Shown: piece after piece, positions 1-4,452 of the stretch
Position numbering within the stretch: position 1 is the first letter of the stretch
Layout of the letters: every line of letters begins with the position of its first letter
NCBI GenBank assembly: GCA_024225395.1
Contig: JAAEMR010000099.1
Coordinates: 1 to 46,339 of the forward strand
DNA length: 46,339 bases
DNA from: Gammaproteobacteria bacterium
GTDB taxonomy: Bacteria > Pseudomonadota > Gammaproteobacteria > GCA-001735895
Direction: 5' to 3'
Notes under the pieces: generated by a model
Told to the model about the DNA's origin: nothing
The model's database searches: none
The model's input: only the letters and a program-made list of their open reading frames with translations
Position numbers and translations under genes: made by a program

Positions 1-1348
1 AATCACTCACTGCATTGCCATCGCTATCAACTCCTGTTCCATTCAGGGTTACAGCATCCTCTTCATTGACAGTTTGATCCTGACCGGCATCTGCTGTTGG
101 TGGGTTACCGGTAGACGGTGGAGGTGCTGGAGGATCAATTACCGGAGCCGCAGCAACACTGATCACAACCTGCGCAGTATCTTCCCCTCCTCTATTATCT
201 GAAGCGGTATAAGTGAAAACTGTATTCCCGGTAAATCCAGCTGAAGGAGTGAATGTGTAATTACCGTTTGAAACTTCTGTAACAGTACCATTTGCTGGTT
301 GAGTAATTCCCGCGACGACCAGTTGATCGCCATCAGGATCAATATCATTTGCAAGCACATTGTTTAAATTAATTGAAACACCACTAATCGTAGACGCTGA
401 ATCGTCAACGGCCGAGGGAGCAGCATTAGAGCCTGGAACAGCCAGAACTTCTTCATTTACTTCAACAATATCCTCAACTGCTGTGACCGCATAAGCCGCA
501 AAGTTATTATTTCGAAATCGTTGTATAGACTGGTTAAGGTTAATACTGGCGGGGAAATTCTGGTTAACACCGTTCACCGAAACCTGAAAGGCATTACCGA
601 GGTATTGACCATTTAGAATCCCATCCGACATATCTTTAACCATGCCCATCATGATTTGATAGTCAGGAACAGGTTGACCAAGAAGAATAGCGGCAGTGTT
701 TAGCGCATTAGCAACTCCACCCAGGTACATGGCATATTCAATAGAATCCAGGCTGTCGCTGGTTGAAGGAGATAAAGGGTTAGCGGCTGCAACGGTAAAA
801 GGATCAAATCCCAGTGCTAATTTAGCTGTATTTCGATTATTGTTGAGTACAGCCTGAAAGTTATTAGATGTTTCAGCGATACATTTATCAAGCAAAGCGC
901 TAGTCAGCATGGTAACCGAAGCACTTGTAGTTTGAGGGAACAAAATACCTTTCAGTGACTCATTTGGAGCCAGGGTAATCGTTCGTTTATTGACAGCAGG
1001 ATCAGCTTCATCAATATAGCTCCCCCCTGATACAACAATGAGAGTCGCCTCAGTGGGTGCAGTTGGAAAACTAACCTGCCATTGACCATTAGTATCGGTG
1101 GTTGTCGTTGCCAGTGCTACTCCTGTGGGTGAACCTGTATTATCGAGTGCATATATTTCAACGGAGGCATTCTGAATGGGGCCTTTACTGGCAACACCCG
1201 AAACCTGAAAGGTATTTTCCTGCAGAGAAGTTACGGGCTCAAGATTATTTGAAACAGCATTTTCATCAACAGATGATGATTGCTGATTACAAGCAGAGAC
1301 CAGCAGTAATAAAGTTAAAGAGGAAATTAAGCGTTTAGAGAAATCCAT
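1..1348 (-). CDS. Large surface lipoprotein with Ig/cadherin-like and PKD-like repeats (3' end beyond window)
   Basis: The frame opens at ATG 1348-1346 and stays open to base 1, so only about 449 N-terminal residues are seen. The N-terminus is a lipoprotein signal peptide with lipobox LVSAC, so the mature protein should start at a lipidated Cys. A carboxypeptidase-regulatory-like segment follows (VSGVASKGPIQNASVEIYA), then an alpha-rich stretch of unknown fold. Next come a cadherin/tandem-95-type Ig repeat (VLANDIDPDGD ... FTPSAGFTGNTVFTYTASD), a Pro-rich linker and the start of a PKD-like repeat (ADAGQDQTVNEEDAVTLNG). This is the architecture of long surface adhesins. It lies 11 nt after the FecR-domain gene, with TGAGG upstream of the ATG as a ribosome site, so it is probably the third gene of that operon. 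It may be exported to the surface by the Slam-like protein two genes upstream; that is inference. The ligand is unknown. Confidence 0.8.
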   Translation of the reverse strand, partial: MDFSKRLISSLTLLLLVSACNQQSSSVDENAVSNNLEPVTSLQENTFQVSGVASKGPIQNASVEIYALDNTGSPTGVALATTTTDTNGQWQVSFPTAPTEATLIVVSGGSYIDEADPAVNKRTITLAPNESLKGILFPQTTSASVTMLTSALLDKCIAETSNNFQAVLNNNRNTAKLALGFDPFTVAAANPLSPSTSDSLDSIEYAMYLGGVANALNTAAILLGQPVPDYQIMMGMVKDMSDGILNGQYLGNAFQVSVNGVNQNFPASINLNQSIQRFRNNNFAAYAVTAVEDIVEVNEEVLAVPGSNAAPSAVDDSASTISGVSINLNNVLANDIDPDGDQLVVAGITQPANGTVTEVSNGNYTFTPSAGFTGNTVFTYTASDNRGGEDTAQVVISVAAAPVIDPPAPPPSTGNPPTADAGQDQTVNEEDAVTLNGTGVDSDGNAVSD

Positions 1349-1359
1349 AATCACAGGCC

Positions 1360-3021
1360 TCACGGTCTAATAAATGAGGCAGCACCATTGACGGTAGTGC
1401 CTCCGTTTATATCGGCTTCAAGAGAGAAGCCCATACCCGCTCCTGTCGCATTGTTGGTAAAGAAACCGGCTGTACTACCCGTTCCGCTAATGTTTGCATT
1501 CCCTGTATCAACATTGACGTTAGTCATATTTCCGGCAAATCCACCGTTAGCAGTAATATCCATACCGACTCCCTGACCAGTCCATAGCTGGTTATTGGTG
1601 GGTATTGAGACAGCAACGGAGGTATCAACCGTCATATTGGTAAAATTTGCATCTAAAGTAGCACTACCCAAAACACCGACATTTCCATGGTTATCTGTTG
1701 GATTAGTATTTCCTGACCACACAAATGAAGCTGAACCAGCACTGGGCAATGCAATGGCCTGGGACTGATCAGGGCTACTCACCCAGTGTAAGCTTGAAAA
1801 GTTTTGTCCAGTAACAGGACTACCATCTGGCGCTTGAAATTCTGTTAAACCAGCTCCCCAGCGTCCCCAGGCTATTCCTGTTTCAGGATCGAAACCCAGG
1901 TCTATGGTGGAAGATGAGCCGGCGTTATAGACTCCGACAATATCGGGATTATCAATTGATTTATTATCAAACTTCCTTACATCATTTTCCGAGGTAATCA
2001 CAGCAGTACTGAAAGGATTTGAATAAACGGAAGAAATGGAGCCTGCCTGGCCCTGTTTACCATAACTTGAAACCACCATTCGACTACTGGTTATGCCGCC
2101 ATCAGTCAAAGAGAAGGAATCCCCATTTTCAGTTTCAGCAACCTGATCAGTGGCTATATTTTGTTCAATTTGCTCCTGATCTAACTCGACCTGATCAATC
2201 TCTAAATCATCTTTAATAGTATCATCTGTCAGCAGATCGGCAGTATCAGGTTCTACTGCAGCTCTTGAAGCAGTTACAGCGCTTTCAGCAACTGTTTCAG
2301 GTTCTGACTCCTGTGCCTGTTCATCATCAGGATTTGGTGCTCGACTATTAAAGTATAAAAATTCAGGAGCGCTGCTTAGAGCTACAGGGGCCGTAGTAGC
2401 ATCCTTTACATAACCAAATTGCAACTCATCCAGTCCCAGAGTACCCAGGTCGTTGGTCAGGTCTATTCCTCCTTCATTCACTCCAACATAAAGCCCATCG
2501 GCAATAGTGCTACCAGAAGCTAAATTCCCAAATGCCTGATTGCAATCCTGATTACATAAACGTGCCGTATAATCAGTGCCGCGAATACCGATCGTTGCTG
2601 TAGGCGTTCTCATCTTATAGGCACTGCGTAATCGTTTGCCAATAATACCGGTAACCGCCCTGAAGCCACCTCTCAACAATGAAAAAATACCGGTGTCCTG
2701 CTCTTTTGCAGCGCCTAAACTGTAAGATTCAATTTTTACCTCACTGTTTGAACGGAGAGCAATAAAAGCTTTATCAATCATACGCATTTGTACAAGTGAT
2801 CGGCTGGATGTTCTTATTGTTTCTCCAGAATCAACCTGACTTCGTTTAGATAGTTTCCTGGTGACTCCATTAATGTCTTCAGCGGTGACTTCGCCATAGG
2901 CGAAAACAACTCTACCGGCTTCAGCAAAAGCGGATGTACTGGATAACAAGAGTACCAGGCAAATGAATGAGTTACTTATAACATTCATGGAGGAAGTATT
3001 TCTTATGTATAAATGGCTCAT
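1360..3021 (-). CDS. FecR-domain secreted protein with C-terminal TbpB-like beta-barrel domain
   Basis: 553 residues. A signal peptide ends at SAFA (about residue 33), with no lipobox. Residues about 36-160 form a FecR domain (GEVTAEDINGVTRKLSKRSQVDSGETIRT ... then RTPTATIGIRGTDYTARLC). A long acidic, Glu/Gln/Asp-rich linker follows (about 230-300). The last 190 residues are Gly/Asn/Thr-rich beta strands ending in GFFTNNATGAGMGFSLEAD and a terminal AASFIRP, which resembles the 8-strand handle barrel of TbpB and other Slam cargos. FecR here is not the iron-sensing anti-sigma form: there is no N-terminal cytoplasmic domain and no sigma factor nearby. The start codon overlaps the stop of the Slam-like gene (ATGA), which implies translational coupling. 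An internal Met at residue 12 would give a shorter signal peptide, but it has no ribosome site. The cargo role is inferred from the domain and the neighbour. Confidence 0.82.
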   Translation of the reverse strand: MSHLYIRNTSSMNVISNSFICLVLLLSSTSAFAEAGRVVFAYGEVTAEDINGVTRKLSKRSQVDSGETIRTSSRSLVQMRMIDKAFIALRSNSEVKIESYSLGAAKEQDTGIFSLLRGGFRAVTGIIGKRLRSAYKMRTPTATIGIRGTDYTARLCNQDCNQAFGNLASGSTIADGLYVGVNEGGIDLTNDLGTLGLDELQFGYVKDATTAPVALSSAPEFLYFNSRAPNPDDEQAQESEPETVAESAVTASRAAVEPDTADLLTDDTIKDDLEIDQVELDQEQIEQNIATDQVAETENGDSFSLTDGGITSSRMVVSSYGKQGQAGSISSVYSNPFSTAVITSENDVRKFDNKSIDNPDIVGVYNAGSSSTIDLGFDPETGIAWGRWGAGLTEFQAPDGSPVTGQNFSSLHWVSSPDQSQAIALPSAGSASFVWSGNTNPTDNHGNVGVLGSATLDANFTNMTVDTSVAVSIPTNNQLWTGQGVGMDITANGGFAGNMTNVNVDTGNANISGTGSTAGFFTNNATGAGMGFSLEADINGGTTVNGAASFIRP

Positions 3022-4340
3022 GGATGAAACTCACTACGGGCAGTTAACATGATTAAGTTTCTATCATAATCATATATATCAATGTTTGAAGTATTTTCGG
3101 TTTGGCCTATAACACCTTTTAACACCCAGGTTTTATTAACACGCCAACTACTACCAATGGAAAAGTCTAAAAAAGTATCGGTTCTCACCTCAGGGATTTC
3201 AAAAAAAGTACCGTCAAATTCAGACTCAGTGGCTCCCACAGAGGCAAACAAATTAAGTCGATGGGTCACAGGATAAGAAGCAGAGAGCCTTACACCTGTA
3301 TAATCACGTCCATAAGGAGATTCCTCTTCAACTGCACTTTCCTGCCCGGCAATGGCCGCCATTACAACTGACACCCTGCTTTGCCCGGAGAAAACATGAG
3401 CCCAGCTTAGACCGGCTAAATTTTGATCAACATCCTTTATGTCAAAAACTGTTTCATAATTAACCATTCCACTGCGTAGAAATAGTCCCAGTTGATTGGA
3501 AGGTGAAAAGTTATAATTAAACTGACCGGTTAAAGACAGACCCTTATTATTATAATGGCCATCTACATCTGCAGTATAAAATTGCATGGCAACTGAAATG
3601 TCGCTACTGGTACCAATTGATCTGTTGTAACCAGCTAATAAATCATAGTTAAGAGTGCTGGTAAATGATGCATCATTATTTGCCCGGCTATTGACGCTTG
3701 TTTTGAAGAAAAACTTGCTATTAATACTCAATGGTAAATTGTAGCTTATCCCTCCCAGCATAGAGAGAACAGATGACGGGGTTTTTCTACTATCTTCGGT
3801 AAGATCAAAACCCAGAAAATTCTGGGAAGATGTGGCGCTGTTTACATTACTGTCATCACCGAGGCCAAGCTGAAGAAAGCCTTTCCAGCCCTTGCGATTC
3901 TGCAAACTTCTACTTTCAATCGCAGCCAGATATTTATCGACAACTTCTGTAACGCTCCTGGGGGGTGATTGGCTCTGAACAATAACAAATTCACGTTGTG
4001 CACGTGACATTTGCCCCATATCAAAATAAGAGCGTCCCAGTTCTAAACGTGCACCGGCAAAATTTGGTTCGATAGCGAGTACACGTTGAAATGCGAAAAC
4101 AGCAGCGGCAGGTTCACCGGTATCAAGTAACGAGAGACCGTATAAATAGTCATACTCCTTATCACCTGCATATTCTTCTTCATGCGGCTCAAGCAAGTCT
4201 AAAGCTTCTACAGATTGTCCTTTAGCCAGCATGTTTTGAGCTGCAAGTAACAGGCTTTCGTCAACGGCAAATGCCGGGGCAGCCTGTAAAGATAATAACA
4301 TCAGCGAATATATTAAAAGCCCTAGATAATTGCCTTTCAT
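3018..4340 (-). CDS. Slam-like outer-membrane protein (TPR domain plus beta-barrel), candidate type XI secretion translocon
   Basis: 440 residues. A signal peptide ends at PAFA (residue 25). Residues about 27-145 hold TPR-like helices (YDYLYGLSLLDTGEPAAAVFAFQRVLAIEPN, ARLELGRSYFDMGQMSRAQREF, PPRSVTEVVDKYLAAI). From about 155 to the C-terminus run alternating amphipathic strands starting with LQLGLGDDSNVNSATS, the DSNxN signature at the start of DUF560/Slam barrels. The chain ends in an aromatic/His outer-membrane-type strand. Known family role: Slam proteins move lipoproteins or soluble cargo with a TbpB-type barrel across the outer membrane (type XI secretion). Its neighbour, a FecR protein with such a barrel, and the lipoprotein after it are the obvious cargo candidates. 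It is the first gene of the operon behind a CRP-type promoter. It could instead be a plain TPR/porin-like protein of unknown function; only a profile search would settle that. Confidence 0.75.
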   Translation of the reverse strand: MKGNYLGLLIYSLMLLSLQAAPAFAVDESLLLAAQNMLAKGQSVEALDLLEPHEEEYAGDKEYDYLYGLSLLDTGEPAAAVFAFQRVLAIEPNFAGARLELGRSYFDMGQMSRAQREFVIVQSQSPPRSVTEVVDKYLAAIESRSLQNRKGWKGFLQLGLGDDSNVNSATSSQNFLGFDLTEDSRKTPSSVLSMLGGISYNLPLSINSKFFFKTSVNSRANNDASFTSTLNYDLLAGYNRSIGTSSDISVAMQFYTADVDGHYNNKGLSLTGQFNYNFSPSNQLGLFLRSGMVNYETVFDIKDVDQNLAGLSWAHVFSGQSRVSVVMAAIAGQESAVEEESPYGRDYTGVRLSASYPVTHRLNLFASVGATESEFDGTFFEIPEVRTDTFLDFSIGSSWRVNKTWVLKGVIGQTENTSNIDIYDYDRNLIMLTARSEFHP

Positions 4341-4402: not shown

Positions 4403-4452
4403 TCCGATTAACTATACCTTCGATTGTTGATTTTTTTGTGACCCGCGTCACA
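4403..4452 (-). promoter_or_regulatory. Class II CRP/Vfr-type promoter of the Slam-like operon
   Basis: TGTGACCCGCGTCACA at 4437-4452 is an exact match to the CRP half-sites TGTGA-N6-TCACA. On the minus strand a good -10 box, TATAGT, lies at 4416-4411, putting the transcription start near 4404. The site centre (4444.5) is then about 41 bp upstream of the start, the textbook position for class II activation. The only gene this promoter can serve is the one starting at 4340. Which cAMP- or effector-binding CRP/FNR-family regulator binds is not visible here. Confidence 0.7.

Follow-up and report, generated by a model that had tools for sequence, protein, structure and literature searches.

A candidate type 11 (Slam-like) secretion pair with a FecR-domain cargo in a gammaproteobacterial genome

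Introduction

What does a TPR-containing outer-membrane barrel do beside a FecR-domain protein encoded in the same gene run, and could the second protein be exported through the first? The question arises at the left end of a 46,339-nucleotide stretch of DNA from a Gammaproteobacteria bacterium (JAAEMR010000099.1, hereafter the window), which is one complete contig (C99) of a 4.45-Mb draft genome. Three genes follow each other there on the minus strand (Table 1). Genes 1 and 2 overlap in the tetranucleotide ATGA, and 11 nucleotides separate gene 2 from the ATG of gene 3 at position 1348. Re-reading of the sequence bears out this layout, on which an earlier note, made from the sequence alone, had based the proposal of a Slam-like channel with two cargos.

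The most probable explanation is that genes 1 and 2 are a Slam-like pair of the type 11 secretion system (T11SS), composed of a translocon and a FecR cargo that would be wholly or partly exposed at the cell surface and probably switched by cyclic AMP (cAMP) and CRP. In Slam-dependent export the holdase Skp acts first, after which Slam translocates the unfolded cargo (PMC9090332); soluble T11SS cargos exist (PMC8406197, PMC8560813). According to one survey, every T11SS channel so far verified by experiment falls within a single animal-associated cluster, whose cargos mainly bind metals, haem or a host (PMC12282271).

Table 1. Features at the left end of the window, with positions counted from its first nucleotide
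Feature	Positions	Strand	Basis or remark
Gene 1, T11SS-type (Slam-like) outer-membrane channel (predicted), 440 aa	3018..4340	-	Signal peptide, TPR helices and 14-strand barrel; AlphaFold and profiles
Periplasmic TPR domain, gene 1 residues 25-148 (predicted)	3897..4268	-	TPR_19 41 bits; model helices 43-149
Membrane barrel of 14 strands, gene 1 residues 151-438 (predicted), beginning at the conserved GxDSNxN	3027..3890	-	Alignment, model and structural matches
Gene 2, predicted cargo, 553 aa	1360..3021	-	SPI-type signal peptide by inspection; channel adjacency family-wide
FecR domain, gene 2 residues 34-226, effector part	2344..2922	-	PF04773 37 bits; PupR and other FecR-type domains Z 15-16
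Disordered acidic linker, gene 2 residues 227-311	2089..2343	-	pLDDT <50 nearly throughout
Pedestal/handle strands, gene 2 residues 371-416, with invariant WGRW at 385-388	1774..1911	-	Alignment and model
C-terminal 8-strand barrel, gene 2 residues 430-551, predicted T11SS targeting domain	1369..1734	-	Model pLDDT ~92
Gene 3, Big_9/PKD-repeat lipoprotein, not supported as cargo	2..1348	-	Big_9 79 bits; ended by contig edge
Exact CRP palindrome TGTGACGCGGGTCACA, ~97 nt upstream of gene 1	4437..4452	.	No other copy in the window; expected number 0.07

pLDDT, predicted local distance difference test; SPI, signal peptidase I.

The predicted channel

The AlphaFold model of the gene 1 product (pLDDT 92.1) contains 7 helices and 14 strands. 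Structural alignment places CymA (Z ~23) and OmpG (Z ~22) nearest among solved barrels, both of which have 14 strands. At the start of the barrel, G161, D163 and N165 of the GxDSNxN motif are invariant among 26 aligned homologues, orthologues of 22-67% identity. The architecture of signal peptide, TPR region and barrel opening at DSNxN, from which a Slam-like protein had been proposed, holds on re-reading, and the family is linked to Slam by profiles.

Taken alone, gene 1 matches TPR families and, weakly, barrel families. Its orthologues lead further: 16 of the 26 match SlipAM (PF04575) and 17 match TPR_Slam, at E-values up to 0.1. Among the orthologues examined singly, at least eight exceed the PF04575 cut-off, with a maximum of 58.7 bits (L106 58.7, L091 40.4, L060 33.4, L107 31.2, L110 29.6, L070 29.3, L069 25.9 and L077 25.8 bits, the L numbers denoting individual loci). 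The channel family profile, A1, aligns with the canonical Slam of locus L109 over 354 columns covering both TPR region and barrel (hhalign P 99.2, E 1.2e-19). A PDB search with the channel profile returned TPR proteins only. A PF04575 search of the window's own genome found no match, and control genomes were equally silent, so this search is uninformative. Because of the profile links through its homologues, gene 1 is assigned here to a putative divergent lineage within the superfamily of T11SS channels, although the window protein on its own fails the Pfam test; the Slam assignment made earlier is supported through the family.

The predicted cargo

By inspection, the gene 2 product carries a candidate signal-peptide cleavage site between AFA and EAG. 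Pfam recognises FecR only in this protein. The FecR domain aligns with PupR at Z 15.9 (VIA-align) and resembles the anchoring domain of MpAFP (5ix9), with a template modelling score of 0.84 on the target and a root-mean-square deviation (rmsd) of 2.0 in Foldseek, and a profile E-value of 9e-7. Across the family, the FecR and C-terminal profile matches are spaced by a median of 95 residues.

The leading Foldseek matches of gene 2 are TbpB, PupR, HphA and LbpB. With residues 312-553, VIA-align gives NHBA at Z 13.5 (110 residues, rmsd 2.0), HphA and fHbp at 12.3 each, the TbpB C-lobe and Acinetobacter baumannii hemophilin at 11.9 each, and HpuA at 11.2. Almost every structural neighbour of the modelled C-terminal region is a cargo that depends on Slam or is associated with it. 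The union of FecR with a C-terminal barrel is as the earlier note had it; its 'Gly/Thr-rich barrel' had been inferred, and the model now gives eight strands. The suggested kinship with TbpB barrels is upheld by the profile of the cargo C-terminal domain and by structures, and finds no direct Pfam match.

Linkage of channel and cargo

The profile of the cargo C-terminal domain only, A3, was run over 398 genomes of the phylum and matched in eight, including the window's own; in all seven others an A1-type channel directly adjoins the match. One of the matches, at E 1.3e-11, is a lipoprotein that scores 47 bits on FHBP_C and 32 bits on TbpB_B_D; its neighbour at locus L109 is a canonical Slam, which reaches 290 bits on SlipAM. 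Compared directly, the cargo-barrel profile and this single lipoprotein match weakly (P 43), and the link between them rests for that reason on the A3 search and on the structures. In two genomes of another class, the A3 domain is repeated in cargos of 1000-1200 residues with no recognised FecR. Since such FecR-less barrel cargos also adjoin the channel, it is the A3 domain and not FecR that tracks the channel, as would be the case for a targeting domain.

At L107:6635-10255, L108:8180-11242, L085, L194 and L241 the cargo carries the targeting domain two to four times or more in tandem. Some multi-copy cargos are without FecR, in alphaproteobacteria such as Erythrobacter and Parvibaculum.

The linkage was counted over 145 channels remaining after removal of identical sequences, 135 of them from the subfamily and 10 more distant. 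In the channel tree the dividing branch has 99% support; 63 of the 73 rows drawn form the subfamily, and the rest share a branch with the canonical Slams. A FecR gene lies directly downstream of 123 of the 135 distinct subfamily channels, with the caveats that part of the loci were first found through FecR, of which the A3 search, the A1 search and the named-genome scan are independent, and that A1 leans to FecR-linked members. The other subfamily channels have FecR nearby in a different order (three), a barrel (A3) cargo lacking detectable FecR (five), a position at a contig end (two) or no cargo detected (two). In the contrast group of more distant channels, one in ten has a FecR neighbour. 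Pairing is thus near-universal within the subfamily, and together with the barrel fold and the profile links it supports the relation between channel and FecR cargo that the earlier note had proposed.

The gene 1-gene 2 pair is present in well over 100 proteobacterial genomes, and the named-genome scan shows the nearest named relatives of the window to be metagenome-assembled genomes (MAGs) of Gammaproteobacteria. The viral contigs searched gave no relative; plasmids hold distant homologues only, several annotated 'surface lipoprotein assembly modifier'. L248 and L258 (Parvibaculum) are subfamily channels with no FecR or A3 cargo detected nearby. The operon also occurs in MAG records titled Bordetella parapertussis (L202, L213), a species label that looks doubtful.

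Probable regulation by cAMP and CRP

The CRP palindrome upstream of gene 1 recurs in the family. An exact site precedes 7 of 132 homologous channels (0.05 expected), and at least nine of the ten CRP positions are matched upstream of 18 (~0.9 expected). The window's own genome encodes a CRP orthologue above the cut-off. CHASE2 genes lie on the same strand in 16 of 80 named loci, mostly just upstream, and all eight of the CHASE2 genes checked contain a nucleotide cyclase domain; the three CHASE2 genes of the window's own genome are all on other contigs. Loci with adjoining CHASE2 and adenylate/guanylate cyclase genes include L200, L190, L204, L206, L212, L226, L246 and L259. A regulatory role of CRP and cAMP on the pair is probable.

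A parallel exists in Sinorhizobium meliloti, where cAMP-Clr switches on smc02177, a FecR gene located close to cyaD1 and clr that is required to limit secondary infection (PMC5498481). The cyaD1-smc02177-smc02178 locus resembles the present system in having a CHASE2-type cyclase, a CRP-family regulator and a FecR gene under its control; no T11SS has been reported there, and the likeness is drawn from the published description. The CRP site and the cyclase neighbours make a testable regulatory hypothesis, to which this cAMP-controlled FecR gene limiting root infection provides the parallel.

Proposed mechanism and rival explanations

In the proposed mechanism, gene 1 would be the outer-membrane translocon, with its TPR domain in the periplasm and its 14-strand barrel in the membrane. 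Gene 2 would use a cleavable signal peptide for export by Sec; its C-terminal 8-strand barrel would serve for recognition, and all or part of the protein would then reach the cell surface, where the FecR effector would be presented on a flexible linker; expression would probably be switched by cAMP through CRP. Translocation of an unfolded cargo in the Slam manner is inferred here by homology. With full export, FecR may be a surface or secreted binding domain; the lack of LapG sites speaks for this, as do earlier examples of soluble cargos. With partial export, FecR may act as a plug in the periplasm, on the model of LapA (PMC13090378), which the LysM-bearing members and the CHASE2 neighbours favour. 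That the FecR cargo binds surface polysaccharide is speculation.

Several observations weigh against a T11SS assignment. The window channel has no PF04575 match, and its TPR_Slam score is sub-threshold (16.1 bits vs a cut-off of 35.2). No Slam structure that could serve for a direct comparison stands among the PDB matches listed for gene 1. No Pfam cargo-barrel family (TbpB_B_D, FHBP_C) directly matches any of 28 FecR cargos, although the NCBIfam family 'Slam-dependent surface lipoprotein' touches four of them. The gene 2 product is not lipidated, which sets it apart from most neisserial cargos, although examples of soluble cargos exist. Finally, an N-terminal LysM-like domain, an anchor of the peptidoglycan type, precedes FecR in some cargos (L063:1085-3124, L075:8954-10996, L077, L082) and would fit an N-terminus in the periplasm better than one at the surface.

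A rather unlikely alternative is one in which the channel would export the C-terminal part only, and a FecR domain folded in the periplasm would stall in the pore after the manner of the LapA/MpAFP retention domain, leaving the cargo tethered through the channel by the linker and FecR able to signal to periplasmic CHASE2 sensors. The match of the FecR fold to the 'cell surface anchoring domain' of MpAFP speaks for such a plug, as do the LysM domains, the length and disorder of the linker, and NCBIfam retention_LapA, which touches 19 of the 28 members; CHASE2, which adjoins the loci counted above, is an extracytoplasmic sensor domain. However, the FecR fold is common and also found in anti-sigma factors, a T11SS cargo retained in this way has not been reported in the literature searched, and the LapG-type motif [TAP]AAG occurs in 3 of 93 linkers vs 2.8 in shuffles, which is no enrichment. 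Processing of the linker by LapG was rejected on that ground; a LapG homologue is present in the genome, on another contig. An extended form is unlikely: a cAMP-controlled T11SS whose cargo would be held across the outer membrane by a FecR/LapA-like plug in the periplasm, with the barrel outside, and would report to CHASE2 cyclases. If true, this extended form would be a mode of tethering and signalling that is not known from T11SS.

Two further explanations dispense with secretion of gene 2. The FecR protein could be a periplasmic regulator of cell-surface signalling of the FecR/PupR type that carries a small barrel incidentally, next to an ordinary porin. Its fold equals the PupR signalling domain, CHASE2 cyclases are neighbours, and the BiofilmReg operons of Burkholderia pair LysM-FecR with CHASE2 kinases (PMC5192318); yet a candidate signal peptide directly precedes FecR, there is neither a cytoplasmic anti-sigma domain nor a transmembrane helix, and the near-universal linkage to the channel is kept by barrel cargos without FecR, all of which makes a regulator very improbable. 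About as improbable is a polysaccharide export porin of the BcsC, PgaA or EpsL type with the FecR protein as periplasmic accessory. BcsC shares the plan of TPR plus barrel and is the top Foldseek match of gene 1, and EpsL matches weakly (E 6.5e-10, far below the cut-off). But the 14-strand barrel is nearer to CymA and OmpG than to BcsC, the profile links lead to Slam, the partner has a cargo-type barrel, and no polysaccharide genes were found among the window open reading frames scanned. With 14 strands, and EpsL, BcsC and MamA profile matches all far below their cut-offs, the porin candidate was rejected.

Relation to known systems

The preferred reading, a Slam-like pair, can be set against four known systems. 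With T11SS/Slam (DUF560; SlipAM PF04575 and TPR_Slam PF24575; cargos TbpB, fHbp, NHBA, HpuA and HphA) the pair shares TPR region and 14-strand barrel, a neighbouring predicted cargo in which a pedestal precedes the 8-strand barrel at the C-terminus, and divergent profile homology on both sides; it differs in the FecR effector, the non-lipidated cargo and the separate branch of the channel tree. HphA/hemophilin, a secreted T11SS cargo (PMC8560813), resembles gene 2 in that the latter is a predicted cargo without lipid anchor whose residues 312-553 align at Z ~12, whereas HphA has an N-terminal haem clamp in place of FecR and a long linker. The N-terminal retention module of LapA/MpAFP has the same FecR-like fold at the N-terminus, but those proteins combine type 1 secretion, a LapG site and giant repeats, none of which is seen in the gene 2 pair. 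The S. meliloti locus has been compared above.

FecR goes unmentioned in the main text of two T11SS surveys (PMC12282271, PMC8406197), and no paper found in the literature search contained FecR together with T11SS terms. We read the pair as part of a type 11 secretion subfamily that has FecR cargo, is widespread and not rare, and is undescribed in the literature searched. If this is true, a large environmental branch of the T11SS would export a quite different effector, the FecR domain, and a function would be provided for many 'FecR domain-containing protein' annotations that adjoin unnamed TPR barrel genes.

Gene 3 and a further neighbour

Gene 3 has the lipobox LLLVSAC and is cut by the contig end after ~450 residues, which leaves in view a first Big_9 repeat and the beginning of a PKD repeat. 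The large lipoprotein with adhesin repeats described earlier is borne out in these parts, the window copy being incomplete. Its first 300 residues are conserved, and relatives reach at least 2500 residues with a beta-helix. Among the 80 named loci, ~14 have the N-terminal domain of gene 3 after the pair; in the relatives, no A3 cargo-barrel match was found downstream of this domain, the window copy ending at the contig edge. Its proposed role as a second cargo is unsupported, given this minority of loci and the lack of a cargo barrel in homologues; gene 3 may work together with the cargo.

At L106:9183-11279, a gene of glycosyltransferase family 41 (OGT-like) lies directly downstream of the FecR cargo, which makes glycosylation of the cargo possible there.
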